A stretch of 64,000 bases of DNA from Owenia fusiformis. Its lineage: Eukaryota; Annelida; Polychaeta; Sabellida; Oweniidae. Below, one piece after another: positions 7,801-64,000 of this stretch. The position numbers and the translations under genes were made by a program. The DNA lies in assembly GCA_903813345.2 (NCBI GenBank), contig CAIIXF020000002.1:3200001-3264000 (forward strand), in the 5' to 3' direction. The notes below the pieces were generated by a model. It had not been told where the DNA came from. It saw only the letters and a program-made list of their open reading frames with translations, and ran no database searches. Position 1 is the stretch's first letter. Each line of letters opens with the position of its first letter.

Positions 7801-7899
7801 AATACTTTCCGCCTTCCATATTATGATGGGATCAAACAAGATAGTGTATTTGCAAAATTTGATTATGCATTTAGTAATAAGTACTTTGGCAAACATTAA
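4833..7899 (+). CDS. HECT-domain E3 ubiquitin ligase (G2E3-like), C-terminal exons
   Basis: Five exons join in phase: 4833-5129, 6027-6136, 6508-6650, 6991-7168 and 7658-7899 (TAA). All have GT-AG borders, giving about 322 residues. The N-lobe carries the hallmark DLGGPRRELL near 5087-5118. The next exons hold the helical segment around GYFAAGVAVAMALLFEGPP. The last exon has the C-lobe core ILKFITGS and IPTSSTCTNTFRLP; the Cys codon at 7795-7797 lies where HECT enzymes form the ubiquitin thioester. A HECT enzyme takes ubiquitin from an E2 on this Cys and passes it to substrate lysines. The stop follows FGKH. Substrate recognition presumably lies in undetected upstream exons and the zinc ribbon at 1364. 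There are no frameshifts and the key Cys is present, so the gene looks functional. Confidence 0.83.
7217..7357 (+). mobile_element. Short copy B of the TGTCACCACC-type element
   Basis: It shares the left end (GTGATGACATATTGTTATGG) and the right end (GGTGGTGACATTTTGCATGT) with copies A and C but lacks most of the interior. It lies in the last intron of the HECT gene. Confidence 0.65.
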
Positions 7900-34666: not shown

Positions 34667-34670
34667 CTTG

Positions 34671-35416: not shown

Positions 35417-35519
35417 CTTGGTGCAGCTGCCTTGTTTTCTAGTCTTATCAAGAAAGCAATTTGAATAGAAAATAATAAGTGAACAAAACAAGTCAAAAGA
35501 AAAGAAATCAAATAAAACC

Positions 35520-36758: not shown

Positions 36759-36769
36759 AGGTGCAGGAA

Positions 36770-37545
36770 TGGCTATATCGTCGTATAGCGATATATATCG
36801 TCTCTCAGAAGATATATTCGTGGAACTATCTCTTCCCATCCTCAAATCAAAATATATCCGATATATATCTCTGGGGTAGGATATATATCGAATATATCGT
36901 GTATATCGTGTATATCGTCATCCATAAATATAAGAACTTTTTAACAAACCTCTGTATTGAAGATATATATCTGATATATATCTTGAAGACAGGATATATA
37001 TCGATTATAGCGTATATATCGTGTGTGTATCGCTCTATATCTAGGAAAGAGGATATATATCGTGTATATCGTTATCATGTGTATATCGCTCTATATCTTG
37101 GGAAGAGGATATATATCGAATATATCGTGTATATTGTCATCCATAAATATAAGAACTTTTTAATAAACCTCTGTATTGAAGATATATATCCGATATATAT
37201 CTTGAAGACAGGATATATATAGATTTTAGCGTATATATCGCGTGTGTATCGCTCTATATCTAGGAAAGAGGATATATATCGAATATATCGTGTATATCGT
37301 GCTTGATAAATATGGTATTCGATATATATCCTGTCTTCAAGATATATATCGGATATATATTCCCAGTTTACAATTTTGTTAAATCAGTTCTTATATTTTT
37401 CAAACATGATATACATGATATATTCGATATATATCCTCTTTCCAAGATATAGAGTGATATACACACCATATTTACGATATATTCGATATATATCCTCTTT
37501 TCAAGATATTCAGGATTAGAGGGATGATATCAGGGATGATATTGA
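36770..37545. repeat. ATATATCG satellite, left block with internal inversion
   Basis: Units built from GGATATATATCGAATATATC, GTGTATATCG and CTTGAAGACAGG run forward to about 37310. From about 37316 the same motifs appear inverted (CCTGTCTTCAAG, CGATATATATCCTC), so the block is itself a large imperfect palindrome. Confidence 0.8.
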
Positions 37546-37789
37546 TACCGGGTATATTACAATTTTTACGTTTTCCAAAAAAATCATTTTCAAAATTTTT
37601 CAGTTTTTCACAAATTTTCATATTTTCAAAATTTTCATTTTTTCCAAATTTTTCATTTTTTCCAAAAAATCGTGTATATCTTCGTTATGTATCTTGATAT
37701 CAAGACAAATATCAAGTTGGTATCTTTTTTTCACAAATTAGATTTATTTCCAAAAATTTATTTTTTTCCAAAAATGAGTTTGTAAATGA

Positions 37790-38970
37790 AACCCCCTCAT
37801 TGAACTACATTTTAAAGGCTCTTTTTGTTTGAATTTTATTTAACATAACCTGTGAGGAAAATGTGTATTGATGGAAATGTAACTTGACTTCATTTCCAAT
37901 GCCCCCAAGGTTTCCCAATTTTTTCCTCAATCACAATAGGTCGAAAATTGGTGATAAACTTTATGAATTTGTGAAAATCGTCATTCCTATGTAAACCAAT
38001 GGAAAATGGTGGGTTCGGGGCAAATCTGATTTCAGGGTACCTAACCAGTAAAAGACTCACCTAAAATATTTTTATAATTATAGAAAATTGAATTGTCTAC
38101 TTTTTGTACTCTAAGTGTTCAGTTTACTTTATGAATACTTAAGTAACAGAAAAATAATTTTGACTTTGAAGACCTATAACTTTTTAAAACTGAGGAAACA
38201 TATCAAATTTTTATTAAACAAAGTAAGCAAATACAATTTTGGCCGCCTAACTTGCATTTTTTGCAACATCTCAGATGGATAAATATTCTGTCATATGACT
38301 TGCGGCAAACTTACTATTTCCCATTGGTTTGCATGGGAATGTCGATTTTCCAAAATTCATCAGATTTATCATCAATTTTCAACCTATTGCAATAGACTAG
38401 ATGCGAGTAGAAATGATCTTGAATTACGTCATTAAATATTCAAAATTCAGTCAAAGTGATGTCATATTTGAAATCTACATGTAAAAATACATCTAAAAAT
38501 ATGGTTTCGAAAATTGTTTATCAACTTTGAAAATTTAATATTTTTTGAAAATGTGACTTCTAGTTCGGGTTGATTCCCCATAGACCCCATATTACAAAAT
38601 CACAAAAAGTGAAATATCTTTTCTTGTATTGGACATATAACATTTTCTTTTACTGGACATACTTTAATTTGCATAACTATTGGATACATTAGGGCTATAT
38701 GAAAATTGAACCACTAAAACAGATGTAATTTAAATTAAAGGGAACTTTCTACTATACCCACCATGCTATCTGACCCGAGCGAGCCACCTGGTGGTGAAAC
38801 TGGCAACTACCTACTCGCATTTGCGTTATTGAGGAAGAATTGGGAACATTTGGAGGCATTGGAAATTAATTAAATTACATTCCCATCAATATTATAAGTA
38901 TTTTCCTCGCAGGTAATGGAAATAGAAATTCAAACATAAAGAGGCTTTAACACGTAGTTCAATGAGGGAA
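37790..38970. mobile_element. Nested inverted-repeat element inside the satellite element
   Basis: Left arm from 37790 (ACCCCCTCATTGAACTAC, TGAGGAAAATGT, TTTCCAATGCCCCCAAGG) and right arm to 38970 are inverted copies over about 150 bp. A second inner pair is CCAATGGAAAATGG near 38000 and TTTCCCATTGG near 38320. No coding frame. Part of it (38440-38830) recurs at 1738-2165. Confidence 0.68.
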
Positions 38971-39149
38971 CTAAGATTGCCAAACTTACGGAGGGGAGTG
39001 TATGTAACGTAAATATTTCTAAGATTCAATCCTTTTTTCTCTCATTCAACAGAAGATTTGGGGTAGATGTTGCTCTTGACCATGGTATAAGGTCGTTATT
39101 CACCTGTGGGGATGATATGGGTAATATCCCTCGGATGATATCGATATTT

Positions 39150-40680
39150 CCCTCGGTCACTATAGCGTATGTATCGTTAGTATATCGCTCTATAGGATAT
39201 ATATCGAATATATCGTATATATCATGTGTATATCGGTCAATATCTTGAAAAGAGGATATGTATAGAATATATCGTGTATATCATTAGTTTATCGCTCTAT
39301 ATCTTGAAAAGAAGATATATATCGAATATAGCGTATATATCGTGTATATCGTCGTGTATAATTTTAAGAACTGATTCAACAAACCCTGTATTGGGGATAT
39401 ATATCCGATATATATCTTGAAGACAGGATATATATCAAATATAGCGTATATATCTTGTGTATATCGTTCTATATCTTGAAAAGAGGATATATATCGAATA
39501 TATCGTGCATATCGTGTATATCGTCATGGATAATTTTAAGAACTGATTCAACAAACCCTGTATTGGGGATATATATCCGATATATATCTTAAACACAGGA
39601 TATATATCGAATATAGCGTATATATCTTGTGTATATCGTTCTATATCTTGAAAAGAGGATATATATCGAATATATCGTGTATATCGTGTATATCGTCGTG
39701 TATAATTTTAAGAACTGATTCAACAAACCCTGTATTGGGGATATATATCCGATATATATCTTGAAGACAGGATATATATCAAATATAGCGTATATATCTT
39801 GTGTATATCGCTCTATATCTTGAAAAAGAGGATATATATCGAATATAACGTGTATATCGTGTATATCGTCATGAATAATTTTAAGAACTGATTCAACAAA
39901 CCCTGTATTGGGGATATATATCCGATATATATCTTGAAGACAGGATATATATCAAATATAGCGTATATATCTTGTGTATATCGCTCTTTATCTTGAAAAG
40001 AGGATATATATCGAATATATCGTGTATATCGTCGTGTATAATTTTAAGAACTGATTCAACAAACCCTGTATTGGGGATATATATCCGATATATATCTTGA
40101 AGACAGGATATATATCAAATATAGCGTATATATCTTGTGTATATCGTTCTATATCTTGAAAAGAGGATATATATCGAATATATCGTGTATATCGTGTATA
40201 TCGTCATGGACAATTGTAAGAACCGACTTAACAATCTCTGTATTGGGGATATATATCCGATATATATCTTAAACACAGGATATATATATCGAATATAGCG
40301 TATATATCTTGTGTATATAGTTCTATATCTTGAAAATAGGATATATATCGAATATATCGTGTATATCGTGTATATCGTCATGAATAATTTTAAGAACTGA
40401 TTCAACAAACCCTGTATTGAGGATATATATCCGATATATATCTTGAAGACAGGATATATATCAAATATAGCGTATATATCTTGTGTATATCGCTCTTTAT
40501 CTTAAAAAGAGGATATATATCGAATATATCGTGTATATCGTGTATATCGTCGTGTATAATTTTAAGAACTGATTCAACAAACCCTGTATTGGGGATATAT
40601 ATCCGATATATATCTTGAAGACATGATATATATCGAATATAGCGTATATATCATGTGTATATTGCTCTTTATCCCATACT
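39150..40680. repeat. ATATATCG satellite, right block of ~172-bp units
   Basis: About eight tandem units, each with AATTTTAAGAACTGATTCAA then CAAACCCTGTATTGGGGATA, CCGATATATATCTTGAAGAC and GATATATATCGAATATA. Spacing between repeats of GAACTGATTCAAC is roughly 165-178 bp. The higher-order unit is built from 8-12 bp ATATATCG-like submotifs. Confidence 0.88.
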
Positions 40681-40856
40681 TGGACGTGTTACAGGTACAT
40701 AAAGCCGGTTGGTAAAAACTTATATTTTCATCAGCGGGCAGATATAGCTATACGTCCCGCTCCGAGCGGGCAGATATAGTATATCTGCCCGCTACGTCAT
40801 AATCGCCGTTCGCATTTTTGTTCATAATTTGTAACGTTCGCGTAATGACTGTACAC

Positions 40857-41078
40857 GACAATGGAGAAAACACAGACAATCGGGATCTGTTTGATGGTTT
40901 AAAAAAGGGAAGGAGCATCCACTTAATCAATCAAAAATTCGAGAAATTAAATGTGGGAATATTTGAGGGAACAGGAAAACCAGCCCACGGCCAAGAAAAA
41001 AAAACTGGACATGAATATTCTAAAATATTTCCACGATTGAACAATGTGAACCAGATGACCAAGATTGGTATGGGATAA
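40857..41078 (+). CDS. Short unassigned reading frame inside the satellite element
   Basis: From ATG at 40845 a frame of about 77 residues (longer with an upstream ATG at 40818) ends at TAA 41076-41078. It lies in the only stretch of the element that is neither satellite nor inverted repeat and has more balanced base composition. Composition is polar and basic (DNGENTDNRDLFDGLKKG). I recognise no family. It may be a captured host or transposon fragment, or chance. Confidence 0.3.
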   Translation, partial: DNGENTDNRDLFDGLKKGRSIHLINQKFEKLNVGIFEGTGKPAHGQEKKTGHEYSKIFPRLNNVNQMTKIGMG

Positions 41079-41079
41079 A

Positions 41080-41225
41080 CATATTATCCTATAGTCGGTT
41101 CAGGATATTTGGATTATCCCTTGGCCAATATAATATATTTTCCCTCGGGACCTGCGGCCCTCGGGCAAATATATTATATTGGCCTCGGGATAATCCCAAT
41201 ATCCTGAACCTCATATAGGATAATC
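41080..41225. repeat. Hairpin with CTCGGGACCTGCGGCCCTCGGG core
   Basis: Arms TTATCCTATA, GGTTCAGGATATTTGGATTA and GGCCAATATAATATATTT pair with AAATATATTATATTGGCC, GATAATCCCAATATCCTGAA and TATAGGATAAT, making a near-perfect stem around the GC-rich core. Confidence 0.8.
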
Positions 41226-41445
41226 TCTATATATCTTTGCAAGAGGATACATATCGAATATAGCGTGTATATCGTCATGGGTAAATGCTAGGGACATGAT
41301 AAAATCTGGAGAAGTATATCTGGCCAGATTTTATATAGCCTTATATACCGACGATATATATCGAATATATCACATGTAAGTCAATGAGAGGCAGTATAGC
41401 GATATATATCGCTATACAACGATATAGCCATTCCTGCACCATTCT

Positions 41446-44400
41446 CTATTTTGACCAGCCAAATTTTCAGAGATAATCTCATCAATGTGTCTTTTGCTGG
41501 ACATGATTTTAGGGCTTTGGTAGACACTGGTGCTCAAATATGTGCAATAAATTACAATGTGTTGAAACGATTTCCTGAACTTGTGACTCAAATTCAAAAC
41601 TCAAGTGTAAAGAAATGCGTGACCGCAAATGGCGATTCCTTACAAATAATTGGAGAAATATACACAACAATTGATATTGCGGATAGGACAGCTCAAATAA
41701 AATTGCAAGTCATAGATAACTTAGATCACGATATCATTATCGGGGTCGACTTTTTGTCAGCTTATGAAGTTACAATTGATTTCAAATCCAAAAAGATACA
41801 ATGCCCAATACCAGAACAATCAACTCTGTTTGCCGATATAGTTATTCCTCCAAAGTCCGAAGTTGCGTGTTTAGTGAAAACCCGAGACAAATTTCCGAAT
41901 GGTGTCATAGGAGAGTGCAGTAGAATTAATTTGAAATTACCGGTAGTAGTTGCTTCATCAGTGTCTTGTTTACAAAATGACCGCGTCCCAATAAAAATCA
42001 TGAATATTACAGAAAATGAAAAAATTATTTACAAGTCTACTAAACTGGGCAAATTCACATGTTTGACTAGTGATACGGAACTGGTTAGTCTATCAGCAGG
42101 CCAAAACAAGCAGATAAATAATTCTAAACAAGAAAGAGACCACATGTCAAACAGATGTTCTAAGAACACAAGATCATACCAGAAGGGCAAAACGACTCAA
42201 AGTGAACCTGTATACCGGACATTAAACAATGACGGTAACAACAGTTCAAGTAACTCAAAATGGCTGAAGAGTAAAATAAACCATACCCAAAATCAAAATA
42301 CAAAATACTTCACTCATAAGCAAGGCAAATACACAAATACACCAAGCACAAGCATGTGGGGTGCACCTGTTATATTAGTTAAAAAGCCATCCACAAAACC
42401 CAATGAACCACAACAATTTCGATTCTGTGTAGACTGGAGAAAATTAAATGCCCAAACAGTGGAAACATCTTTTCCAATGCCTCTTATCAATGAATATATA
42501 GAATCAATTGGCTCCCAAGCACCACAATACTTTACAAGCATTGACCTCGCAAACGCATATCATCAACAAAGTTTAGCAAAGGAAGACAGAGAGAAAACTG
42601 CTTTTGTCACGCATGAAGGGTCATTCCAAATGAAGCGTACAGGCATGGGTCTTAGAGGTTCTGCAGCTTCTTTTCAACGCCTCATGACGTCAGTATTGCA
42701 AAACTTGAATTGGACATGCGCATTAGTGTATTTAGATGATATTGTGGTTCATAGTCCTACATTTGACCTACATTTACAACATATTGACGCGGTGTTGTCA
42801 CGCATACAAGATGCTGGCCTGAAAATCAAAGGTTCAAAATGTCAATGGGCACAAAAAGAGCTCAAATATTTAGGTCATATAATCGATCGTTCAGGTTCTA
42901 GTCCAGATCCAGCTAAGGTGGAATGTGTGAAGAATTATCCAACACCCAAGAATGTTAAGCAAATCAGACAATTTCTGGGAGTGTCTGGATTTTATCGCAG
43001 GTATATCAAAGGATATTCAACACACTCGAGGCCATTGACCATGCTCACTCAGAAAGATACACCATTTGTATGGGGCATGGATCAACAGAAAGCTTTTCAA
43101 TATCTGAAAGATACATTATGTAGTAAGACAGTATTAGCATATCCAAATTTTGAAGCACCTTTCACGCTAACTACTGATGCGAGCAAACAGGGCATAGGAG
43201 CGTGTCTATCACAGAACATTCAAGGTGAGGAAAAAATCATTGCATACGCAGGCAGGTCATTGTCTGCTGCAGAGAAGAACTACTGTACAACCGATTTAGA
43301 AGGACTTGCAGTTGTCTGGTCAATCAAGTATTGGAGACAATATCTTGAAAATTCCAAATTCACAATAATCACAGATCACGAGAGTTTGAAATGGTTTTTC
43401 AATCAGAAACAACTGATCGGGTCAAGAAGAGCAAGGTGGTCTCTATACCTCCAGAACTTCAACTTTGAAATAAAGTATCGACCTGGCAGGATAAATGGGT
43501 TAGCTGATGGACTTAGTCGCAGAGAATACCCACCTCCCAGCGATCAAGTATTGCAACAACAAGTGGATGAAGAACTGAGGATGTTTCCAATGGATGTCAA
43601 CATTCAACAAGGAAATAAAACCAAAGGAAGTAGAAGCAAGATGGGTCAAATAAAACCAGATACACCACCAATGAGGTCAATTCGTACACGTGCACCACAA
43701 GTGCCATTGAATGAAGCGAAAACATCAGATAGTAGGCAAACTGAAGAATCACTGGATGTCCATGAGGATCAAGGTAAAGAAATGAAAGATATATTATCTC
43801 CTCAACTACAGTCTAATTTGAGACGAGTTGCGAAATTACAAAGAGAAGATGCTTTTTGTACCAATATCATTAAGTACATTGAGGATGATCTCCTACCTAA
43901 TGACACCAAACAAGCCAGGCGAATCCTACTGACGTCAGCAGACTTCATAATGCAGAGAGGTGTCTTATATCATTGGCATCAAGACAACTCAAGAAAACAA
44001 GCCAAGATGATACAACAGTTAGTACATCCATTAACGTTGGTTGACATGGCGTTGACGAGTATGCATGACGATGTTGAAGGAGGCCACTTAGGGCTGCAGA
44101 GAACACTTGCGAGAATCAAAGAAAGATTCTATTGGCCATTCATGAACAAAACAGTAGACAACTGGATCAAATCATGTGTGTCGTGTAATGGGCGAAAGCC
44201 GGGCACCAGAGGAACTGGGAAATTGCTACCTATGCCTATTCCCGATGCCATATTTTGTATGTGTGCTATTGACGTTCTGGGACCATTGACAACATCAAGT
44301 CAGGGAAACAAGTATATCGTTAGCTTTACTGACCATTTATCAAAATATTGTGTTGCCTTACCCTCTGCGAATCAATCAGCAGAGACAATAGCTCAGTTAT

Positions 44401-45053
44401 TGTTTGACCGGGTTTTCTGTATTTTTGGTGTTCCAATGAGTTTATTGAGCGATCAAGGCCAAAACTTTTTATCAAATCTTGTGTCACAACTATGCTTGAT
44501 GTTTAATTGTCAACGAAAACGCACCTCAAGCTATCACCCGGCTTGTAATGGGCAGGTAGAAGTGCGGAACAAGGTGTTATGCAACATGATGGCGATGTAT
44601 GTTGACAAGCAGCAAAAGAACTGGGATCTGGCTCTTCCTGCAATCTGTCAAGCATACAACTCATCAGTACATGCATCCACAAACCAAATTCCAGCAGTGA
44701 TGATGTTTGGCAGACTACCAAGAATGGTAATTGACACAAATTACATAATTCCTGATAATGTCTCAAATGATGTTCAACAGCATCTTGCAAGAATTATGAA
44801 AAATGTTGCAGATGCTGAGCAGAGTGCTAAAGATGCTTTAACTCAGCAGAAACAGCAAATGAAGGAATATTATGATAAGAAAAATGAGAACAAACGATCT
44901 GATTTTGCATGTGGAGACATTGTATATTTACATGTTCCACGCGTGACACCAGGCTTATCAAAGAAATTGGCATTCAGCTACCATGGCCCATACATTATCT
45001 ATGAAATGTCAAACAATATCGCGTATATTAACATAGTGCTTGAACCGATTTAA
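41446..45053 (+). CDS. pol: Gypsy Pol polyprotein (protease, RT, RNase H, integrase)
   Basis: About 1200 uninterrupted residues, numbered from the TTG codon at 41451, which continues the Gag frame. Order: aspartic protease (ALVDTGAQICAIN, residues 22-34), reverse transcriptase (FRFCVDWRKLN near 323; YLDDIVVHS near 427), RNase H (TDASKQGIGACLSQ near 575), integrase zinc finger (H-x-x-x-x-x-x-H as HDDVEGGH near 872 with CVSCNGRKP), and integrase core Asp (AIDVLGPL), Asp (SDQGQNF) and Glu (NGQVEVRN), with 35 residues between the last two as in DD35E enzymes. There is no start codon of its own, consistent with an originally fused Gag-Pol. All catalytic motifs are intact, so the polyprotein was recently functional. 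Confidence 0.93.
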
Positions 45054-46867
45054 GAATAAAAGAGTACTATAAAAGGTACAGTATAATTATGATATTCAAA
45101 ATAATATGCGTGAATTACTAAAGCATGAGATATTAGTAGATTAACATTTAGATTATTAGCCTGGCCAGGGTACTAACAAAATCAGCAAATATTAGTACGT
45201 AGCTGAGAAAATCTTAAATTCAAAACATTTTGACAACTGTCTATAAGGTGACTGATGTTGCATTTATACACATGTGTTCCGTTTTATATTTCTGCATCAT
45301 TTCGAAATCATAGGATGCTTTAACTAGTCTCTAAGAAATACTTGTACTTCCAAGCTCATTCATGAATTTGGGAGTGCTCGCCTTCATTACGTAATGGCTA
45401 TTGTGTTGTATGACAGTAACTTACTGACCTGGTTGACCTGTTTAGGTGTAATTAGGATAAGGTTCAATGTTGTTCTATGCTTACTCAAAGCAGTTGGTTT
45501 CAATTTATCTATGGTTGAAAAACATTATTAAATTTTTTGTGTTCGATATCCCCGACGAGGAATTCTTTCCCTTTTCTATCTTTATGCGAGCTCGCGAAAT
45601 AAACAAATTTTAGAATGAGATTCCACTTTGTAATTTTTTTCCAAATCTGTAAAATGTTGCAACGTAAAATTAAAAAATAATACAATTATACATATAATCT
45701 CAATTATAAACGCCCTCCTTTTATAAACATCTACAGCTAAGATGATTTTGGTATACCAAGTTACATGTATAACCAAATCCCAATTAAAAAATGTAAATAT
45801 TCCAAATTTTTTATGTTATTTTTGTGCCAAGTTTTGGCAGGGTCGACCCATTTATGAAATGCACTTACCCAGTGTCCAATTTTTCTTATCCCCTTTTGTG
45901 TCCCAATTGCCCCAATCATTTTTTTGAAATCCCCTTTTCAACGAGAACATCATACGTTGAGGTACAGTACAGGTACAGATCTGGGGTACAGTATAATGTC
46001 CGAAAAAAGGCTGGGAGCCTGTGTAAGTGAATGGAGAAGCATCACAAACAACATCGATGCCAGTGATACAGACTGCGATACTTTATTACAATTTTGCCAA
46101 AGAAACAAAAAGTGCCGAAATTCTGACCATCCCCAAAGAGAGAAGATCTACTACGCGCTACGATTTATTCGAGAGTTGCTTCAAGTTTCTAGTTTCAGGT
46201 ACCCAAAACAGGGCAACAGTCATGCCATCTATAGACGAGGTCGAATCGAACAGAGAATTGCCATCTCAAAATGCTGAATGACAAAATGACACAATCAGAG
46301 ATATATGGAACGATATCCTCCCAAATGCCAGACAATAAGTCACAATGCTAAAAGTGACTATAAAACAGAACATTGATATACGACAAATATTTGAACACGT
46401 GGACGATTAGATGTGTGCTACAAGATTCGCAGAACATTCTACTGACAGATGAAGCATCAAGATTGATACAAGAATGAACATTTGCGCCTGATCCAGATGA
46501 GATCACAATTATGTGACCCGAATGATGAATAAAGTTTAGATAACTGAACATAATCCTGTTGATTGGTAGCAGGATGGACTTTTCTATACATATTAATGAA
46601 GAAAGTTATCAATGACTGTTAGGTTAAATAAAAACACACGTCATAACTGTGTTACTGCATTTACATGTATTTAATTGCCAAGATCACGCATGAGTTACCA
46701 AATTATTGTAATAGTCATAGAAACTGTGATTGTTAAAAATATTGTACTTCATATACTTAAGGGTGAACATATTACTTTCGTACGTCGTCAAACCAGCATT
46801 AGAAAATGTATCGTTATGAAGCCATGTAATAATTCTCAGGGGAGAATTTTCCCAGAGGAGGGGCGAG
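45054..46867. other. Untranslated 3' internal region of the Gypsy element
   Basis: 1.8 kb between the pol stop and the 3' LTR. It has only short frames, none with a signal peptide, transmembrane segment or recognised envelope features. The last 14 bases form the polypurine tract. Confidence 0.6.
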
Positions 46868-47613
46868 TGTTGAGAACAGTATTTCACAATGCTGACAGCC
46901 CAAGATTTATTAGGTACATCCTGAGGTCAGTTCTGTTTATAAACATGCTCCTGATATGACTGGATCTAAATATGTAAATCAGCTTTCCTGTAATCAATTA
47001 TAGCCAGGTGCATGACGAAGGTCCAACGTTTGTCTGTTCTTGCATTATCCTGACAATGACATCATTTCTATCTTTAGAACTCTATGTAATAAGTAACCAA
47101 TCAGAGTCAATGATGAGATGCGTTTTGTTAACGTTTCAAATGGTATATAAGTTGTGAATGAATGTAAGATCAGGGTGAAGAAAATGATAGGGGAAAGATG
47201 GTGGGAAGATAGTGGAAAAGAATCTGAAAACTTACAATCGTCATGATGTCGGAAAATAAGTCAAGGAGCCGAGGAAAGGAAATGGAGAAAACTAGGTAAA
47301 CGAGGATGCCAAATTTAACATTGGTCTGACAGAGTAAACGAAAGTGAAATGGTTTAACGTACATATTATTGTTCACATGTTCACAGTTGATTAAAGGTTA
47401 CACATTAATAAAGTAATTGTATTATGTAACTTATATTCGTTATTCATATTTGCGAGTACGGTAAGACTAGACGATCTAAATATCTCTCACAGCCAAGCAT
47501 TTTCATGTCACAGCCAAGCATTTTCATGTCACAGCCAAGCATTTCGTATTATACAGCCAAACAATTTAAACATTAAATTAATCATTATTAGGTGGCAAAA
47601 ACCACGTATAACA
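46868..47613 (+). repeat. 3' LTR of the Gypsy element
   Basis: Direct copy of the 5' LTR at a constant 12197-bp offset, including the 21-bp triplet. The target duplication CTTG follows. Confidence 0.9.
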
Positions 47614-48284
47614 CTTGAAACAAAAACTAATAATTTAGATAATGTTGAAGAGTACAACGACTTCTCTTCAAAATTCGTTATATTATATTCATCAGAAAAT
47701 ATTCCTTATATATATTCCTAATTCCTACTCATCATATTATCATCAGAAATCTTCATGGGTAATGAATATTGTTTCACCAAGGCACAAGGCAAACCCCTTC
47801 CCTATCCATTACCACTGCAAGAACCCACCCCTTCCCGTGATATTTCAGTTATATTTGTCCAAACTTTCATTATATCATAATGACTATCATAACTTTATGG
47901 AACATAACATTTAATCGGGAATGTGTTCATTCCACAGCAAGCCTGTAGTGGTAGATTTAGTTGTTGTTTATCAAATTACCACCAGTAGCGCTAGCATACA
48001 TGTAGCTCAGCATGTACATTTAACTCTCAGTAGGCATTCGCTGTAATTAATACCTACACGCAAGTCAATTAACCTTAAAGTGCCCCATTACCCTATCAGA
48101 TTAAAATGTTAGTGGAAGAGATGTATGAAATATGTTAAGATATGTGTTGTTTTGCTTGAAAGAGGATTGATGCAGTCTTTGAATAATAAGTGTATGACTG
48201 ATTAATATGGGAATATAGTACTAAACTATTCATGCTCTACAGCTTCAATTAAAATATACTCACATCAGAAGCAGAGTAGTGGTG

Positions 48285-51258
48285 TCATACTTTAATCTTA
48301 GAAGGGTTGCGCTTTTTTATTATTGGATTTGAAGTTATCAATTCGGGTTGGCAGGTTACCAGGTGCTCTGTCACAATAGATGTTAATTTATTTAGGGGGT
48401 GACGTATTCCATTCATTTTACGGTCCAAGTCATTGAATATCTTATGGACACTTTCAATTCCCTGTTCACCTTGAAGACCCATCCCACAGTTATATCTTTC
48501 TATCCATTCCGATATGTGATCTTCAAGGAGATGTTGTTTCAAGGTGATATTTGTCCTTTTAAAGTAGTGTCTATATGCTTCCATGTAGCTGTCAATCTTT
48601 GCTTGAATCATTGGTACTTGCTCAGCCTCGATTTTTTTGTCGTGAGAAACTGCGTTGTGAACAATTGAAAGTTCTTTATTTACATCCTTAAAAATATTAC
48701 TAATGCGATGTGCTGCTTTTACTAATTTGTTTTCAATTTTTAGTCCTTTTGAAATTGACGTTGTAGCCTGAACAACTGCATCACAAAGATCATTGTACAC
48801 CTCTGGCTTTAAATACTTGTGGCAGTGGTTGCCAACAAAAGATTTTCCATGGTATGGTGCCCTTTGTATGTTATGCTTTTTTAGAACCTGGTCAAGTGTG
48901 GCAGCTACAGTTCCAGATTCTAAGTGAAGTTGGTTTTTTGTTTCTCTGTCTTCGATTTCTTTTTTAATCTTTTCCCGTTTTTGTTCATTTGGAATACTTT
49001 CAAGTTCTTTTTTCAGGTTGGAAATTTTCTCAAGTTGAGTAATATATTTCCCATAAGGCGTATCTCGCTTGCTTTCACTCAATGATTCATCGCTGGCAAT
49101 TTGGTGTGCAATTCTCAGATCAATTTTGTTGCAAAGTGACAATAAGAGATCATGGTGTTTTTTCACAAGTCCCAATAATATATGCAAGTAAGGGGGACAT
49201 ACATGATCAATTTCAATGGGAATCAAAGATGGGTTGATAGCGTTTTGAAAGTATTTGGCATTTGATAATTTTGCATTGCCCTTTTCAAGAAAGTCTTTGT
49301 GTGCTTTTTTAAGCGATTTAAGAGTTCTTTCAGGTAGCTTTGACCTTGATGACTTTGGTGTGTTCATGTCAGATGAGCGAATTTCACAATATATACAGGG
49401 AAATGTTCCATTTGCTCCTGATATCCCAAGTGTCTTTGACAGATACTCATAGTCACCACAGCCAAACAGGTTCACTCTCTTTCCATTCCACACCATATTT
49501 TTTAACTTCTCAATCTGTGGAGAGTATCTTTTCAACAACATTTCCATATTTTCCCTACTGTCTTTTGCACAGAATGCGGCAAAAACTAGAGTGTTCTTTG
49601 GGGCATTTGGATTCCTTGTGTTCAATATTTGGAAACATATTTTAAAAGACCCACCCCCGTGATCTGCTCCTATTTTTATCCAAATCTCATCATTGGGAAT
49701 AACATGAGATTGCTCTATCATATTGAATTTTTCCATTTTATCGAGGTGTGATTTTACATGTACTTCCAAATTGTTAATATACACCATAGGCAGTTTCTTG
49801 TATACCTTTCCATTTTTACTCTCGGGGGAAATATTGTCTTTTTTGGTAAACAATTTCAGCTTTTGTTTTAGATTAATATCATTGAGTAAATTTTTCCGAT
49901 ATTCCCTCTGTTTATTTCTGCTCTCTATTGTTATGTTTTCCCGCAAATGCCTCGTTATAACATCCATTTGGCCCCATGACAACCTGGCATCAGACTTCAT
50001 TGCGAGGGCTTGTTTTCTGGTTACCCTTGCTGCTTTTATTTTTGTCAAATGTTCCAGCTGATTCCTGTTCTTTTTCTTTCTATATGCTATTCGCCACTCT
50101 TTTGCTATCTGCTGATTGATGGAATTATCATTTTTTCCCCCTGTTGCTCTCCTGAACTTATTTATTTGTTTTGCTCTGCGCTTTTTAAGAGGTGAAGATG
50201 CTTTTTCACTCTGGACTTGGACCTTTTCTACTTTCATCAAGATCAAAGGCTGGAACATTAATTTGAATTACTTGATGATTTCATGGTATATTTAAGATAA
50301 CACTTAATGATATGTTGAAGATACTTGAATTTTATGGTGATTATCACATGATAAGAGGTTCTTTATGATAGCTTCTTAATGATTTGACATCTAGCTCTTG
50401 ATTAGACAAGTTATACTAGATTGCACTTGATTCAATAGACATTTGACAAAACTTAATACCCAAAAAATGCAATGAACACGCCTTTATCCCCCCCCATTAC
50501 TTGCACATCTTGCATTTAATAAATTAAACCAAATAAATACTCACTTTTCCACCCGTTTTGCAGATTAATGTATCCTTATCTGTTGAATGTTTCAACTTCC
50601 TTCTGACTAGCTGTGTCAATAATTTATTTTCTAAAATACTTAAAGGTGCAGCTAACGGTTTTTGTAATAATTCTTTGATAGTAGATTCACGGCCACGGCC
50701 AGGTGTCATTGATGTAGATGCGGATGATACATCTTTAATGCATACCTTTTTAGGCGTACTCGTGCATTGAAAACTTATATCATTTGTGTCAATGTCACTG
50801 ATGTTTAAACTTTTATCCATGTCTTTATTATAGCTACTCTCAAATGTTCTTTTTCTTGCAATAGCACTGTGAGAGTTCTTAGAATTTGACTTTTCACAAA
50901 TTGTACAGGAGTTCCCATCAAAGGCATTTGTCCACAGGTTATTGATTTTGTTATAGAGATCCATTGTGTTATTATCTATTTTTGCTTTCTTATTCTTCAG
51001 TCTATTATAACATGATTGACAAATCTTCTTTGGGTGAAGATCCGGATTGTCCATATCCAAGTTTATTTCTGGGCATATATTTAATAATTCCTTTTGAATT
51101 GACACACATGGTTGAGGTTTGTATTTTTTCCTAAAAACTGAATTTTTCTCACCACACAATCTACATAAACTATCCAATACTTTTTTGTGATCTTCTGTGA
51201 CATGCATTTTTGCTTTGTGTTGATAGCAGTGTTGAACATGTGTAAAGTGAATTCTCAT
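48285..51258 (-). CDS. RAG1-like transposase (N-terminal zinc region plus DDE core)
   Basis: Exon 1 runs 51258 to 50545 (GTGAGT donor) and exon 2 50249 to 48285, phase 0, giving 892 residues. Residues 32-121 have C32-x2-C35, then HPKKICQSC (H75, C80, C83) and CTIC (C118, C121), the spacing of the RAG1 N-terminal zinc-binding region. The rest resembles a DDE transposase: IGADHGGGSFK (Asp near 434), GCGDYEYL (Asp near 503), PCIYC with its first Cys 19 residues later, QHLLEDH (H-x4-H) and GEQGIES (Glu about 21 residues after the last His). Mouse RAG1 has the same order and near-equal spacing (D708 to C727 19; H937-x4-H942; E962 20 later). Molluscan N-RAG-TP transposons are the nearest described relatives I recall. 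No frameshift; no RAG2-like kelch frame nearby. Confidence 0.78.
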
Positions 51259-51823
51259 GTATTGGAATAGTATATAGACCTTTGGGGGAGGGGATGTTTA
51301 GATAAACATTTCTCAAAACCTTGCGCTTCAAATGCTTTCAAACATTTTTCATCTCATAGGAGATATAACATACTAAAAGAAGGTTTAAATTTTAGTTCAT
51401 TTGAAACGCACACTCAATGTATTATTCAGGTTTAAAGTTAATGTACATTAAGATAATCACAAGAATTTCCAGAAACAAGTTGGTAAGGATCAGATGGTTC
51501 TAATGAGGGTTAATCTAATTCCCATCCAAGAAATGAGTCAAGGGTGTTAAGTAGGGGATCATTATCAATGTTTTCATTTCAAATTCTTTATTTATAATAC
51601 CTTCCAAGGGACTTAATTAAACATTTGAAGAATTAGTTGGTTAATTGGTTACTTCTGGATTGCCATTGAAAAATCCAAATTGAGGCTACTGAACCCAGAG
51701 CGAGGCTATTGAATATTAATTAGGTATATTGGGTTTCAAGTGCCTACTGAACTAAATGCTATGCCTAGAGCTCTACAGGCTTGCTGTGATTCAGTTATAC
51801 ACTTGGAGACCGAGCTAAAGCTA

Positions 51824-51892
51824 AGTTCACACCAACGGCGCTTTGATGGCGCTTTACAGCGGCGTGCAAAGCGTCGTTGGTGTGAACTTAAA
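51824..51892. repeat. Hairpin MITE-like unit, copy 1
   Basis: AAGTTCACACCAACGGCGCT at the left and CGTCGTTGGTGTGAACTT at the right are inverted, enclosing GC-rich CTTTGATGGCGCTTTACAGC. A second copy lies about 145 bp downstream in the same orientation. Confidence 0.8.
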
Positions 51893-52036
51893 TGAAGATA
51901 TTGGAAAAGTCGAGATAATGGTTATGAAAAACGGATATACGTGCTGCAGTCATATGAGGCGAGGCTATAATACTTTAGTTTAATCTGTTTTCATGCAGAA
52001 CATAATTCAATGTAATCTAGTAGTATCTTATTGAGC

Positions 52037-52105
52037 TAAGTTCACACCAACGGCATTTTGATGGTGCTTTAAAGCGCCGTGCAAAGCCGTTGGTGTGAAC
52101 TTAGC
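52037..52105. repeat. Hairpin MITE-like unit, copy 2
   Basis: Same design as copy 1: AAGTTCACACCAACGG to CCGTTGGTGTGAACTT around CATTTTGATGGTGCTTTAAA. The outer GAGCTAAG and CTTAGCTTTAG extend the stem. Confidence 0.8.
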
Positions 52106-55100
52106 TTTAGAAACACATTTTACCTGGTTGCATCCAGAATAAGATAACATAAAAACCTTCATATCGCGAGGGGGAAGAAAAAAACAATGCGTTGATGACG
52201 GTTGATTGGCAAAAGTCGACACCCGTTTGTATACAGTTAACAACCTGGAGGCAGGGTTATTTCAACATAAATGAATAAATAGTATAAACTTTATTGTGTG
52301 TTTTATTGAACCGACATTTTAATAAAACATTAGAGTGATGCAAAAATAACACTTTCCTTTAGAACTTGTGTGACTACAGCGTGACTAATACTTCTAATTA
52401 TAACCAGTGGAATCACAATTGACGTATTCAATTATTTACATAAAAATTAAGAATAACAAAAACTTTACATGGAGTCTTTAAATGAAGCGAAATAGTTGAA
52501 GTGATAATAAATGATATTGGCATTCCAAAGATGATTGTATATTAAATAGGTTTGAATTAGAAAATGATGTATAGTCATGCACGTTTTCCTATTTAGTAAA
52601 TTATTAATTTTGTATAAATGCCTACTATCCTCGATATTTTCATTTTGGCTTTAATAACCCTCCTATCACACCAAATTGCGTCCTCGAAAACGGGCTAAAA
52701 CTTGCCACTGAATATTTAAAATGGTAACTGTAGTGATTCAACAAATGACAAGAAAAGAACCATATACATACCTGCCTGGAAAGAGCTGATTGAAACCAAT
52801 AAAACAAAAAGATTTCGTAAGTTTTTGAAATATATTCAAACTGTAATGAAAGGCCTCCAGATTTTTGATCATTAAGATCAAGTATTGAGAAGTGACTGCA
52901 ATAAGAAATGATAACATGGGACATATGTGACATGTACAAGCGACCATGAATGGAAAAAAAGATTCATATTTTGAGGAATTCACTTAATATATAAACATGA
53001 TAAGGGGAGGTCAATATTTGTATTCTTTACTAGACAATCCTAATAGAGATAATCATATTTTAAAAGATTTGGATTTATGCTAATAACAAAAACATACTCT
53101 ACCTCTACACCAAATTCTTTAAAAATTAAAATTCATAAAATATCTATTTGATGGATGTAATTTAGCGTATTAAGTTCCCTTTCTAATATGCTTTATTTCA
53201 TGAAAATCGAGCCACTATTGACTGTGTTATGAACTTTTAAAGGTAAAAACTGTACATCGCCAAGTAGTTCCGAAACACATTTTCTCCACGAATTTTAAGG
53301 AAAGTGGATTTTTTCATGGATTTTTGCATATTCCTTAATGTCTATGCACAACTTGGTATTATAATTATGATGGTACATTTTTCCAAATTTTAGACATAAT
53401 TTCTTTATCCTCCCCTAGCCCCAATTTTTCAATTTCACTTTTTAAATGTTTGTGCCGTTGCTTGGTGGTTGCTAGGCAAAATCATGGACCGAAAATATAT
53501 TGAAACAATACCAAGTCATACATCCATACATCTGCATACTAAATCACTAATTGGCATGTGTAGTTCATCTTGAAATATATATGCTAAAGACAAAAGCAAG
53601 TTGAACGTGAACTTGCAGACTATTCACTATTTCACGTTACATTGATTTCAATGGGATTTCGCGATACCTGCTATCTTTGAAAATGTATAACTTCAGTTCT
53701 AGAAAAGCTTTACCATGATTTTAGTTTGATTTGAAAGATAATAAGGCAGCGAAGCATTTTTTGGCACAAAAAATTATTGTGAAAGAAAATTGACAATATA
53801 TCACAAAATGTCATAAATGTACACGTTGACCTTGACTTGACAAATATTGACCTATTTTTTAAGAAAGTAAACTTTTCTGAAGAGGTAATTGAATACGGTT
53901 TAAAACAATACCAACAATAATTAAATGAAACAAGTAGTCAATATCAGATCAGAGGAGCGGGGGGTGTTTTCCAAATGTTTAAAAAAGGTTGCAGACATTA
54001 GGGTTAACATTATCTTGTGGCTGTCACGTTCTACAATCAGAACGATTGAAAAACGTACTTTAGACGAGCCGGACGTACTACAAACGGAACTGTCTTCAAT
54101 CCTACTAGAGACGTATTAGAACGTCGTGCAATAATATACTTGGAAGTATTAGAACGAGGTAGAACTAATTTCCAACTGGAGCTGCTTGAACAATCTAAAA
54201 TTCATAGCAATGTAGACGGAATAAATAGTAGATTGGCGAGAGACTGCTTTGAAATAGCTATCACATCGAACTAGTTGTCACTGCGTTTTTCAAAACGTAG
54301 CCGAACTGGTTTTAAACTGTATCCGAACGGACTAAACGTAGTTACATTTTTCTTTGGTCTATTTACTGACTTAATGGACGAGCTATAGAAGTGTCGCCAT
54401 CTTTTAAATCAAGAGTAATTTAAACGTGCACTTTGTCAAAAAGGTGCATGCAGTACTAATGATCTCTGAACTTCAAATGCCGTTTTCTATGTGAGTTATT
54501 TTTTCCTTGGTTTAATATTACTGCAAATTAAACTTTGTATCATATTTAATTGAGTGTGTAAGTAACATGTTTCAATGATTAATTTTTACTTTTTTCTTCT
54601 AAATTAAGCATATTTGGGCTTTAATTAACATCCGGCTAAAAATTAAACACTGAAAAACAAAAGCAACGTAGTTAGGGAGATGTAAGAATAACATAAACAA
54701 ACCATGTAATGTAAAATGAATACTTGGAAATGGTAGTTACTTATATATAAAGATATTTGGTGTTCTTTTTTCAAACTAAAAAACTGCTCCAATCTTATCA
54801 GACAATTGGGAACCTAGTATTTATAATATAGAAGCAATTATTGATTAAAAACCCGGAATAAAAGAAACTTGACTCTTCCTCGAAAGGTGTGTTTAGTTAA
54901 ATCACCAATGGCATCCCAGGTTACATATTTACTTTTAGTTTTCTAAACTCTAGAAGAATTTTTGAAAAAATAAACAAAGATATAAAAAACAAATCGTCGG
55001 TTTGAAAATATCCCGAAGTTGCATATTTTCCCCTACACATTTTTAGTAGAACATTGGTCTTAAAAAATAATTAAATGAGACAGTTTCAAATAAAGATATT

Positions 55101-55648
55101 ATTTGGAATAAAACATTTTTTCTATAATAATATATTTCAAACGTTGCAAGCACGCTGGGTTAAATGCAGTGGCTGATGTAATGAACAATCATGAAACCCA
55201 TTGAGAAATAACAAATAAAAATCCGTCCAGTCACTCACAGAACATTGTCGTGCTTATTGCAACAAAAACTGTTACGCAAGGTTAACCTATGGAAGTCATC
55301 CGAACATAACTTTTCTATTTCACCAAGAGTTGGTAAGTAGGTACTTTTTATGAAAATTTTTGTATTTATGTAAACTGCAATTATACTGTAGGCTTAATTA
55401 TTGTTTAAAGTATTGACATTTGTTCTGAAATTTATTAAAAAGGAATAAAAAAGAAGTAGATAATTATTTCAGACCACAGCAAGATTTTTACCATCGATAC
55501 ATATAAGTTCCGGGACCCTCTTGACATCTAATTTTGGATTAAAATAGATTAGAATTATTTTAGTATAATAGAGGATATTGAACAACTCTTGTATAAGTTC
55601 AAATCATTTGGATTGCTATGAATAATTTACATATTTAACCAATATGTA

Positions 55649-56261
55649 CAGGGTGTCTCGAAAGTATGCCCCTCACCCCTAGGCAGACATACACCAATGT
55701 TCCCTTAGTATGTGTCATATATCTTTTTAAAGCTTAACCAAAGTTCCATTGATTTGCCAAGTATCACCGTTCGAATTACAAATGGGCATTTCAAAACTTA
55801 GTGTCTGACCAATATTAAAGTTGAAATCAGTATCCTGGAAACACCGCTAACCTGAATGCGACCAAAAATGTGGGTGCTATCGTTAAAGAGAGGATGGATA
55901 TTGAGTTGTAAAAGAGGTTGGTAAAGGCAGATACTCCAACGAAACTCTTCTAAAATGCCTTAAAAAGCTTTAATGAGGATTCTTAAATACCATACCCATA
56001 TTTGCAGTGTATTTAAGGTCATATCTGGAAAGAATTGCTGCTGTTAACATGGCCAAGGGAGACACGGCGACTTTTAATTTTGTGTAAAATTTAAGTTTAA
56101 TTTTGGTAAAACACTACATTTTGAAATGGAGTTAAAACTTTTTCCATGATACTTGGCAAATCAATGTAATTTTGGACAAGCTTTAAAATGATATATGATA
56201 CATTCTATGGGGACATTGGTGTATGTCTGCCTAAGGGGGGGCATACTTTCAGGACACCCTG
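55649..56261. mobile_element. 613-bp mariner-type non-autonomous element
   Basis: Flanked by TA on both sides. The left end CAGGGTGTCTCGAAAGTATG and the right end (reverse) CAGGGTGTCCTGAAAGTATG are inverted, and similarity continues for about 110 bp through GGCAGACATACACCAATGT and TTGGCAAATCAATG-type blocks. No transposase coding remains. Confidence 0.8.
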
Positions 56262-56834
56262 TAGTGTTTCATGGCACGCATTTAGTAGTTATGTTATCAT
56301 ACAATGCAAGCAACCACTAAATGTTTTTTTCAGTGGATGACTTTATCAGTTTTTCGTGATAGCCCTTGACAACTATCAAAAATAACATTTTTTAATAAAC
56401 ATCAAACCTAGATTTACATCTTTTGTAGGACCCGTACTCGAATTGTATACTGATTGGTTACAATTTATTTCCGTGTATTTGATATCATACCTGATGTTGT
56501 GTCTGATTTTTATCTCATAAAACTAATTATCAAGATGAATGTGAGATTGCTCATACTAAGGCTAGTGCAATGTGGTATTTATTTGATGTCGTTTTCAATA
56601 CCTGCACAGGGAGATGGGGATAAGAATTAAATTAGATTATAAAACAATCATTGAATAGTTTATTGAAAAGTTTATCAAATTGCTAATATTACGTACAATG
56701 TGCAATCATTATTTCAGTCAGAGTCGTTTTGATTATGACTCGACGACATATGGGCGTCGAATTTCAGTGCAAAAATGCTATTGCTACTTACGCTGTCGAC
56801 GCAAAAAGCGAGAAAGAGTCGAAGGCAAATATAC

Positions 56835-56975
56835 TACACCGGCTTTTAAAGCCGGCTTCTACAGTACATCAGAAGCCGGCTTCTGGCGTCACCAAGAAGC
56901 CGGCTTTTAAGAACCGGCTTCGAATGACTTACAGAAGCCGGCTTCTGCAGTTACCAAGAAGCCAGTTTTAAAAGC
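56835..56975. repeat. Cluster of AAGCCGGCTT palindromes
   Basis: Seven to eight copies of AGAAGCCGGCTTCT or variants are spaced about 15-35 bp apart over 140 bp. Each is a self-complementary 10-16 bp dyad, and neighbouring copies can also pair. It sits at the left edge of the 346-bp tandem repeat. Confidence 0.78.
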
Positions 56976-57001
56976 CAGATTCTCTCTCTCAATCATTTTG
57001 T

Positions 57002-57985
57002 TGTGCATTATGCATCTTATTCTCGTATAATTAGCATGGAAATGAGAAAAAATGAAAATAAGTAAAATTGTTACAAATTGCAAGATTTTTTGCAAAAAGT
57101 AATTTCAAACAAAAACTATGGGGGAAATTTAATTCTAAGTAAAAATAGCGATGAGTTCAATCATGTTCGTTAAATAAGAGTAGATTATGCATTGCATTTC
57201 TGTTTGATAAAAACGCATCGCTCATTTTACAAAACTGGCTCCAACTTGGAGCCAGTTTGCAAATCAGCTCGCTCCATCTTACACAAGCTATGTAGGGGCA
57301 ATCTAGCAACTGGGAATCACGGGATACTGTTTCATGATAATTGTTATGTGCATTATGCATCTTATTCTCGTATAATTTGCATGAAAATGAGAAAAAACTG
57401 AAAAATACGTAAAATTATTACATATTTCGAGATTTTTTGGAAAAAGTCATTTCAAGCCAAAACTATGACAGTAAATTGAATTTTAAGCACAGATATCAAT
57501 GAATAAGATCACATTCATTAAATCAGAATAGATTATGCATTGCATTTCCGGCAAAAAAAAACGCACCGCTCACTTTTCAAAACTGGCTCCAACTTGGAGC
57601 CAGTTTGCAAATCAGCTCGCCCCATATGACAAATGCTATGTAGGTACAATCTGGTAACTGGGAATCACGAAATACTATCTCATGATTATTTTTATGTGCA
57701 TTATGCATGTTATTCTCGTATAATTTGCATGAAAATGAGAAAAAACTGAAAAATACATAAAATTGTAATATATTTAAAGATTTTTTGCAAAAAGTCATTT
57801 CAAGCCAAAACTATGAGAGAAAAATCAATTCTAAGTAAAAATATCGATGAATTAGATCATGTTCACCAAATCAGAACAGATTATGCATTGCATTTCCGTT
57901 TAATAAAAACGCACCACTCATTTTTCAAAACTGGCTCCAACTTGGAGCCAGTTTACATAGCTTGTGTAAGATGGAGCGAGTTGAT
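57002..57985. repeat. Tandem repeat, three units of about 346 bp
   Basis: Units start near 57002, 57347 and 57695 with TGTGCATTATGCATCTTATT. Each contains GATTATGCATTGCATTTC and the dyad AACTGGCTCCAACTTGGAGC-CAGTTT (two and a half turns, at 57231, 57590 and 57927). The third unit is cut by GC-richer sequence after 57985. Confidence 0.85.
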
Positions 57986-61432: not shown

Positions 61433-64000
61433 ATGAAAGCGAACATAGTTATTATGCTGTGTTTCATTTCATTCATTGAAACGGGAAACGTTGAAATTTC
61501 AATTAATCTTTCCAATCGACAACCGGTGAAAACAACGTATTTAAAATCCGTTAACGAAGAACGACTAGACCAACCAATTAAGTCGTTTAAAGTGGTAACA
61601 AACGGTCGATGCGCTGCTACCTGCTCGGCAACCCCGGAATGCACGTCGTACAATTTGCGGATGATAGACGATGAGATATACAAAGCAGTCTGCGAATTAA
61701 ATGGATACAGTGCATCTCCCCCGACTCCTTCATCTGATAAAGTAGACTGTTACATAAAACCACGTAAGCAATAATGTCTTAGAATTATTTCGTAAATTTT
61801 TCAGAATCTGGTTACATTAGCGTAACAAAATAGAGGCACTTCCTGGCTTCGAATCCGATGGGGACTTTTGTTTTCTCGATTTACACCCTATGCAGACAGA
61901 GCCTGTGGGAAATATTGGGTGCGGCGCAAATGAGCGGAGGGTGCGGAGCTAACGGTCATTTTTGAATTTAAAATTGGGATATTTCTGAAACTAAGCCGTT
62001 TTGGGACTTCAAATATACCAAGATATGTGTATTTGACACCAAATATCAATAAAATTGTGAAAATAGTAGTGCAATTCATTTTATAGCGACGCAGTATGCC
62101 TTAAACATTTCCCAGACCTATATATTTTGAGACTATCCTTTTAATACTGCGTCCCCAGCATTCATAAAACATGGTGTTCAAGATACACTACCCATGCAAA
62201 TTATTTTTGCATCTTGGAAGCCAGGCAGTATCTGTGTGATTTTATAAAAATTCGGAAATGTTCTTCAGATATGAGCCCCTCTAAATATTGGGTGCGGAGC
62301 TACGTTTATGGAGCTGCTCCGCACCCAATATTTAGAGGGGCTCATATCTGAAGAACATTTCCGAATTTTTATAAAATCACACAGATACTGCCTGGCTTCC
62401 AAGATGCAAAAATAATTTGTATAGATAGTGTACCTTGAACACCATTTTTTATGATGCTGGGGACTCAGTATTAAAAGGATAATTTCAAAATATATAGGTC
62501 TGGGAAAGGTTTAAGGCACACTGCGTCGCTATAGAATGAATTGCGCTACTATTTTCACAATTGTATTGATATTTGGTGTCAAATACACATATCTTGGTAT
62601 ATTTGAAGTCCCAAAACGGCTTAGTTTCAGAAATATCCCAAATTTAAATTCAAAAATAACCGTTAGCTCCGCACCCTCCGCTCATTTGCTCCGCACCCAA
62701 TATTTCCCACAGGCTCTGTCTGCATAGGGTGATTTACTGTATACCAAATCTACTAATACGTAAAGTTACAGACTATAGCGTGGCAAAAAACTAGAAAATA
62801 TAATTTAGCTTCAAGAAAGGTCATCGGTTTAAACTTGGTGAGAAGTGAAGCCGCAATTCATATATTTAGTATCTTTGTTACATTAACGAAAGTCTATGTG
62901 AACGAATGGACACGTATACGTACGATCCTGTCTTAGCTTCTCGTCATTTGAATTGACCATGTCTATCAGGACTCCTTGTTAGAACAAATATGGCGCGTGT
63001 GTAAATCATTGCCATCCAATATACGTCGATGTAACACAGGTTTAAATGTTACGTCAAAGTAACAAAAGTTCAAAATCGCACCTCATCTTAGTGACATTGC
63101 TTTTTCGTCAATGTAACAAAAGCGAAAGAGTAAATGTATAAATTACGGCTCCAAAGATTGTTTCCGACATTTTACATTTACTTTAAATTATATTTGAATT
63201 AAAACCGAAAAGCATATTTTGGACAGCAAGAAAAAATGGCTCTTCTGTATTCATTGATCATACTTCAGGTAAACCTGGTCCACCCGGAATCCCTACCGTA
63301 TCTGCACGAAACGACACCGCTCATGTTACCTGGACACCAACTCAAGATGACGGGGGTGCAAAGGTCACAAATTACAAAGTTGAGATACGTCGTTCCAACC
63401 AATATACGTGGGAGCTTTTAAACACAAATGATCGTATTCCTGGTACTAGTTATTTGGTGAGAGGTCTAGTAGAAGGTGTTGAGTATGAGCTGCGCGTCAA
63501 GGCAGAAAATGAAGCCGGCACTGGTGAACCATCGCAACCATCAGGGGCTTTAACGTATGGTAAGCAAGTAGTTGACTGGATTCCAACTAATCTAGGTGAA
63601 CTCATATTTATTTTTTATATTGTATACGGCTGTATGTTCGTCGCTCGATCGATCTGAGTATTCTGTTTGAGGAAGATATGTGATATTATACATCAAGTTT
63701 GCACACGACTGCCTGATATTTAGTTCCATGATGAAAGTCATAACTATATCGGTGGTTAATGTATTTATTTTTGTAATTTCAGTCGGACCAAGTGTTTTCA
63801 TGAGGCAGCTGCAAACAGGTAAAATCTCAGATCTGACAGTCAGCCGACTTGGAAATATTGCTGTAACAAATCCAGTTGTTTCTTCAACAACAATCTATAA
63901 CAGGACTTTCCACATGATAAAAGACATTAGCATAGCAACCAGGCGTGTAAGCCAGACCATAGATGGCCAGCTTGTTTTCACAGGTGCAGACGGTAAAACG
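61433..64000 (+). CDS. Secreted PAN plus fibronectin-III protein, 5' part (runs off the window)
   Basis: Exons 61433-61763, 63269-63559 and 63783 to the window end join in phase 1 at both junctions. ATG 61433 is preferred over in-frame ATG 61340 because MKANIVIMLCFISFIETGNV is a good signal peptide. Exon 1 then has a PAN/apple-like module: GRCAATCSATPECTSYN, YKAVCELN and DKVDCYIKP. Exon 2 is one fibronectin type III domain (PGIPTVSARNDTAHVTW, VTNYKVEIR, YELRVKAENEAGTGEPS). Exon 3 starts VGPSVFMRQLQTGKISDL and is unrecognised. An extracellular adhesion or matrix role is inferred. Unspliced, exon 1 would stop at 61774, so the intron is required. Confidence 0.8.
61884..62731. repeat. 848-bp near-perfect palindrome
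   Basis: Arms 61884-62305 and about 62310-62731 are inverted copies with few mismatches. Outer ends are CACCCTATGCAGACAGAGCC and its complement. AATATTGGGTGCGG occurs near the outside and again at the centre (GGGTGCGGAGCTACGTTTAT then GGAGCTGCTCCGCACCC). It lies inside the first intron of the PAN/FN3 gene. It has foldback-transposon structure without coding. Confidence 0.88.

Follow-up and report, generated by a model that had tools for sequence, protein, structure and literature searches.

RAG1 is the enzyme that assembles antibody genes, and both RAG1 and Transib cleave DNA by nicking and hairpin formation. The N-terminal zinc region of RAG1, like that of ZAD proteins, serves in dimerization and perhaps in import. 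Here we describe a Chapaev transposon in a 64,000-nucleotide stretch of the Owenia fusiformis genome (the window), whose transposase a sequence-only reading had presented as RAG1-like. The Chapaev superfamily goes back to Kapitonov and Jurka 2007 (cited in PMC4079192), has named members such as Chapaev1_BF and Chapaev1_ACa, is defined by C(2)C, LH and H(4)H motifs, and has ends that begin with CAC (PMC4079192). DUF1280 proteins have been placed as putative Chapaev transposases in one clade with RAG1 (Majorek et al. 2014). Kapitonov and Koonin (2015) reported an N-terminal domain, 'Chapa', in Chapaev and RAG1 and a RING in two Chapaev subgroups, and they inferred that a common ancestor had already joined Chapa and RING to the core, the RAG1 N-terminus being ancestral (PMC4411706). 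The window element is, with a probability of about 0.93, a complete, autonomous and recently mobile cut-and-paste transposon of the Chapaev superfamily, whose one spliced gene encodes a transposase of 875 amino acids (aa).

The ends of the element were sought by scanning all position pairs around the gene, 43500-48285 against 51258-57499. A single pair, 47933 and 51788, combined a perfect 16-bp inverted repeat with a 4-bp duplication, and the same rule gave at most 11 bp in 60 dinucleotide-preserving shuffles of the flanks. The transposon therefore measures 3856 bp (47933..51788, minus strand) and reaches beyond the 48285..51258 first given as its extent. Its left terminal inverted repeat, CACAGCAAGCCTGTAG, lies at 47933..47948 on the plus strand, and the same repeat, read inward, forms the right end at 51773..51788 on the minus strand; the target site duplication ATTC stands on either side (47929..47932 and 51789..51792).

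A search of the genome assembly (498 Mb in 525 contigs), which the sequence-only reading had proposed for defining the ends, yielded at least 35 matches to the transposase gene. Four among the matches listed are full-length copies of the element, the window copy included. All four share identical 16-bp ends in the arrangement 5'-CAC ... GTG-3'. Their flanking duplications are perfect, measure 4 bp and differ from copy to copy (GAAT, TAAG, TACA and TTCC on the coding strand); duplications of 5 bp had been expected. Identity to the window copy over the entire element is 99.7, 99.5 and 99.4% for the other three. The reading frame is open in three of the four; the 1-nt insertions and deletions (indels) among these three fall in the intron stretch, and their sole exon indel is a 3-nt deletion. 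Because the copies share their ends, carry differing perfect duplications and are nearly identical, they show transposition in the recent past, and the transposon is apparently intact and low-copy. Another locus (L006) has the two outer parts of the element but not its middle, as an internally deleted derivative does; the repeat at its left end is imperfect, and no duplication was observed there. Diverged matches to the transposase gene (64-92%), among those listed G000:C25:88930-90491, G000:C2:5464039-5465268 and others, make it likely that the same genome contains older, related Chapaev families, and the matches at 64 to 78% point to such older relatives.

The gene lies on the minus strand in two exons, 51258-50545 and 50249-48285, which join in phase 0 to give 892 codons and a stop, in agreement with the join proposed earlier. 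Between them lies a GT-AG intron of 295 nt (50250..50544, GTGAGT...TTCCAG) with the donor AAAA/GTGAGT and the acceptor TTCCAG/CCT. The exons meet at CKTGGK/PLILMKV, and relatives carry the block CKTGG(Q/K)P unbroken, for example as CKTGGQP. The phase-0 join, the sequence context and the indels among copies support this two-exon structure, which is predicted by homology. Since the N-termini of relatives start at about residue 18 of the 892-codon frame, the likely start is the ATG at 51207, which would give a product of 875 aa and not 892; the in-frame upstream ATG at 51258 is thought to be unused. Exon 1 then covers residues 1-221 (50545..51207) and exon 2 residues 222-875 and the stop (48285..50249). 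No other open reading frame (ORF) of 80 aa or more was found in the coding direction inside 47933-51788, where antisense ORFs reach at most 117 aa; the element DNA outside the coding span amounts to 581 and 352 bp. The earlier claim that there is no RAG2 partner agrees with this lack of a second long coding-direction ORF: judged by size, with no RAG2 profile run, the 3856-bp element is without room for a RAG2 gene.

Exon 2 matches DUF1280 (PF06918) with 69.6 bits, against a cut-off of 25 (E 3.8e-19). When residues 230-892 were searched against proteins (E up to 0.001, 7995 candidates scored), 58 relatives were listed, and DUF1280 is carried by every one of them. The eight best are 37-39% identical to the window protein, and the six species-named rows among them come from Haliotis, Littorina, Nucella and Elysia (molluscs), amphioxus and sea urchin. 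Repeating the family search from a 17-row alignment yielded no more than 3 proteins. The DUF1280 match, the 4-bp duplications and the CAC...GTG ends assign the family to Chapaev (CMC/Transib group), and not to RAG1, Transib or ProtoRAG. Thus the sequence-only reading was right that a zinc N-terminus and a DDE core are united in one intact protein, and its family call has to be changed. The element shares with the Chapaev superfamily the DUF1280 core, the C(2)C, LH, H(4)H and DDE motifs, the ends, a duplication within the 3- to 4-bp range, the Chapa domain and a single transposase gene. It differs in that no relative in the protein set searched is more than about 40% identical to its protein, which also lacks the RING that part of the family has (PMC4411706). 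The Chapaev3 elements (Merrow, Garfield, Conan) have the same core motifs, and some have a two-exon gene; however, their target duplications are of 3 bp (TWA) and the protein from silkworm is 556 aa long (PMC4079192), compared to 4 bp and 875 aa here.

The RNase H-like catalytic core (48453..49664, minus strand) comprises D417, D487, C506/C509, LH at 576-577, H794/H799 and E820. The order D, D, C-x2-C, H-x4-H, E is as first described, with 19 residues from D487 to C506 and 21 from H799 to E820; the spacings of mouse RAG1, checked on its sequence, are 19 (708 to 727) and 20 (942 to 962). In an alignment of 53 rows, the window protein and 52 of the 58 relatives (P0027, P0040, P0046, P0052, P0055 and P0057 left out), both aspartates and the first cysteine are kept in 53 of 53 and the second cysteine in 52; the two histidines occur in 48 and 49 rows and the glutamate in 48, with gaps in four or five rows at these last three columns. 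This near-invariance argues that the series is more than chance.

The likeness of the core to RAG1 was decided by fold comparison and not by sequence. The predicted structure of exon 2 (predicted local distance difference test, pLDDT, 93.1) was overlaid on the RAG1 core, as had been suggested, and the model shows a predicted RNase H-like core with the RAG1 core fold. This predicted fold supports a place for DUF1280 beside RAG1, where Majorek et al. 2014 have it in their tree. Neither exon 2 nor the 53-row profile retrieved RAG1 or Transib in a sequence search of the PDB. A search with the mouse RAG1 core had no DUF1280 protein among the best 120 of 273 matches, nor any invertebrate RAG-like protein among the named matches of those 120. 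In hhalign alignments of the core, D487, C-x2-C, H-x4-H and E820 stand in register with D708, C727/C730, H937/H942 and E962 of RAG1, and the first D is out of register. Ahead of the core, a basic helical stretch (residues 240-290, 50043..50195, minus strand; helices 25-43, 47-63 and 65-75 of the exon 2 model) is a possible counterpart of the RAG1 nonamer-binding domain (NBD): some RAG1 alignments of the model begin with its residue 14-19 facing RAG1 391-411, at a root mean square deviation of 8 A or more. The fold match to HzTransib begins at Transib residue 21 and model residue 79, so the zinc N-terminus and the pre-core helices have no counterpart in HzTransib. The model also has a helical pair between the LH and GN motifs, at its residues 404-444 (protein 619-659).

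The N-terminal zinc region (residues 1-104, 50896..51207, minus strand) is of the Chapa or RAG1 C1-C3 type and ZAD-like. The motifs reported earlier are all present in the 875-aa numbering: C-x2-C at 15-18, HPxxxCxxC at 58-66 and C-x2-C at 101-104. The window residues C15, R16, C18, C63, C66, W92, C101 and C104 are invariant in 27 rows, and the pattern was found in 24 of the 58 relatives, most of the others being shorter proteins. Of nine relatives scanned, three passed the RAG1_imp_bd cut-off. A 27-row profile of the region matched mouse RAG1 (E 1.2e-12) along a segment that takes in the RING present in some relatives; it also matched the RING-free RAG1 N-terminal chain 21wb at E 7.7e-9. Both were in its top three, and the best 60 of 95 matches (E up to 1) were mostly RING proteins. 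With hhalign, 25 N-termini aligned to mouse RAG1 with a probability of 96 and a score of 60.3, compared to a maximum of 24.0 in 100 shuffles. The profile and hhalign results place the region in the Chapa domain. In a fold search with the N-terminus ZAD chains ranked best, weakly, and the solved RAG1 N-terminus 21wb did not turn up. No publication linking ZAD to RAG1 or to Chapaev was found in the open-access literature. We regard the ZAD-like zinc region and the NBD-like stretch as two leads in the window protein.

Pfam and pattern scans gave no RING match in the window protein; several relatives have one. A single RING-less clade, framed as a hypothesis after a quick tree, was rejected (approximately unbiased, AU, p 0.00033; at least 4 changes) in a 24-row tree of the rows with known N-terminus. 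Nine rows were counted as bearing a RING, seven by pattern, P0017 by Pfam and P0058, a long branch, by eye. The window protein's own position had no support in either tree.

These features suggest how the transposase may act. By analogy with RAG1 and ZAD proteins, the zinc N-terminus would dimerize and perhaps aid import. The basic helical stretch and the domain after it would recognise the 16-bp CACAGCA... ends, and two protomers would bring both ends together. D417, D487 and E820, with metal ions, would then cleave the DNA where the CAC ends meet the flank, probably through a nick and a hairpin on the flanking DNA. The freed 3' ends would be joined 4 bp apart in the target, leaving the 4-bp duplication after repair.

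Several results weigh against a complete and autonomous Chapaev element with a RAG1-type transposase. The fourth listed copy is frameshifted by a 5-bp insertion in exon 2, and the hairpin step is drawn from analogy with RAG1 and Transib only. A scan of the window protein by itself, at E up to 5, did not list RAG1_imp_bd, and the N-terminus of this protein reached no Pfam cut-off (zf-AD 24.1 bits, E 4.4e-5, cut-off 28). The core scored 25.2 with hhalign against a 60-shuffle maximum of 25.5, which one of 60 shuffles reached, and 25.4 against a 100-shuffle maximum of 26.1; against a profile of 22 vertebrate RAG1 sequences it scored 27.6, a probability of 2%, with no shuffles run. The full-length alignment to RAG1 (probability 96.5, 727 columns) relies on the N-terminus and was not controlled by shuffles. 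The comparison of hidden Markov models proposed earlier links the N-terminus to RAG1 and leaves the core at or near shuffle level.

The frameshifted copy, together with the fact that activity of the window copy is only predicted, would fit a dead family copy whose open frame survives by chance or recency. We consider this improbable, given 875 open codons, the retention of every catalytic residue and the in-frame exon indels in three copies. It is more improbable still that the element is a RAG-like (RAGL/ProtoRAG) or Transib transposon or a direct-line ancestor of RAG1. Its ends start with the five letters CACAG, as does the V(D)J heptamer CACAGTG, and RAG1 and its RAG-like relatives (ProtoRAG, BbRAG1L) share with it the zinc N-terminus, the domain order, the predicted core fold and the catalytic residues with their spacing. 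However, all four listed full-length copies have 4-bp duplications and not 5-bp ones, which are typical of Transib (PMC4411706), and all 58 listed relatives carry DUF1280. At E up to 1 the window protein had no listed match to PF12940, the RAG1 family, whereas a vertebrate RAG1 scores 1267 bits. The element also lacks RING and RAG2, no second long coding-direction ORF fits within its 3856 bp, no core sequence match to RAG1 stands clearly above shuffles, and the LH-GN distance is 117 residues compared to 56 in mouse RAG1. Least credible of all is a domesticated host gene derived from Chapaev, which the open frames of three copies, that of the window among them, would allow but which the ends and duplications of all four listed copies at four insertion places, their near identity and the internally deleted derivative, as a mobile family gives, speak against.

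N-RAG-TP of Aplysia reportedly comes from Panchin and Moroz in 2008. Later papers describe it as a transposon that carries the N-terminal part of RAG1, a feature it shares with the window element, and favour fusion with it as the source of the RAG1 N-terminus. N-RAG-TP may itself be a Chapaev element. The window element fits the common-ancestor view and does not decide between it and fusion with N-RAG-TP. It is a new family member, and the layout joining a RAG1-type N-terminus to a transposase core was already published for Chapaev in 2015 (PMC4411706); the bearing on RAG1 assembly claimed by the sequence-only reading is therefore not a new clue as such. Tentatively, and at somewhat less than even odds, Chapaev transposases may correspond to RAG1 in their entire layout and in the same order: a ZAD-type zinc dimerization domain, to which RAG1 C1-C2 would correspond, nonamer-binding-like helices, and a DNA-binding and catalytic core. 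On this reading, the ancestor of the Chapaev-Transib-RAG group would already have had the N-terminus and NBD of RAG1, Transib would have lost them, and they would not come from an N-RAG-TP fusion. If so, a Chapaev of this kind, still mobile, would reveal the working of a RAG1-like enzyme in the absence of RAG2. An apparently intact, low-copy and recently mobile RAG1-type transposase without RAG2, with its ends and duplications defined, makes it testable whether the RAG1 zinc N-terminus was inherited with the transposase or fused later, and which parts of the RAG1 layout alone suffice for transposition.

Inside the transposon, ATTTAGTT lies 22 nt from the left end (47955..47962, plus strand) and 31 nt from the right end (51750..51757, minus strand), a possible but weak asymmetric subterminal site; this pair is an 8-letter match and could be of chance origin. 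Just beyond the right end is a 296-bp foldback (51815-52110) with perfect 25-nt inverted ends and no clear duplication seen. A second foldback, of 848 bp (61884-62731), is 94.8% self-complementary with the ends CACCCTATGCAG...CTGCATAGGGTG and ATTTA flanks on both sides, possibly a foldback DNA element with a 5-bp duplication. A Ty3/Gypsy-type long terminal repeat (LTR) retrotransposon occupies 34670-47617; its LTRs (34670-35420 and 46867-47617) are 99.87% identical, and a 172-bp tandem array (39240-40673) lies between its gag-like ORF (35469-36758) and its pol-like ORF (41400-45053). At 19773-26406, two 2512-bp direct repeats, 99.92% identical and 1610 bp apart, have TG...CA ends, outer flanks ATTC/ATTC and no open stretch over 107 codons, and look like a large non-autonomous LTR element. 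A 309-codon open stretch at 11728-12657 (minus strand) matches an integrase core domain (rva_4, E 7.4e-33). Exon-like stretches at 29914-30513 (minus), 63187-63657 (plus) and 7414-7899 (plus), with matches to ANF_receptor (ligand-binding receptor), fibronectin III and HECT, are probably parts of host genes.
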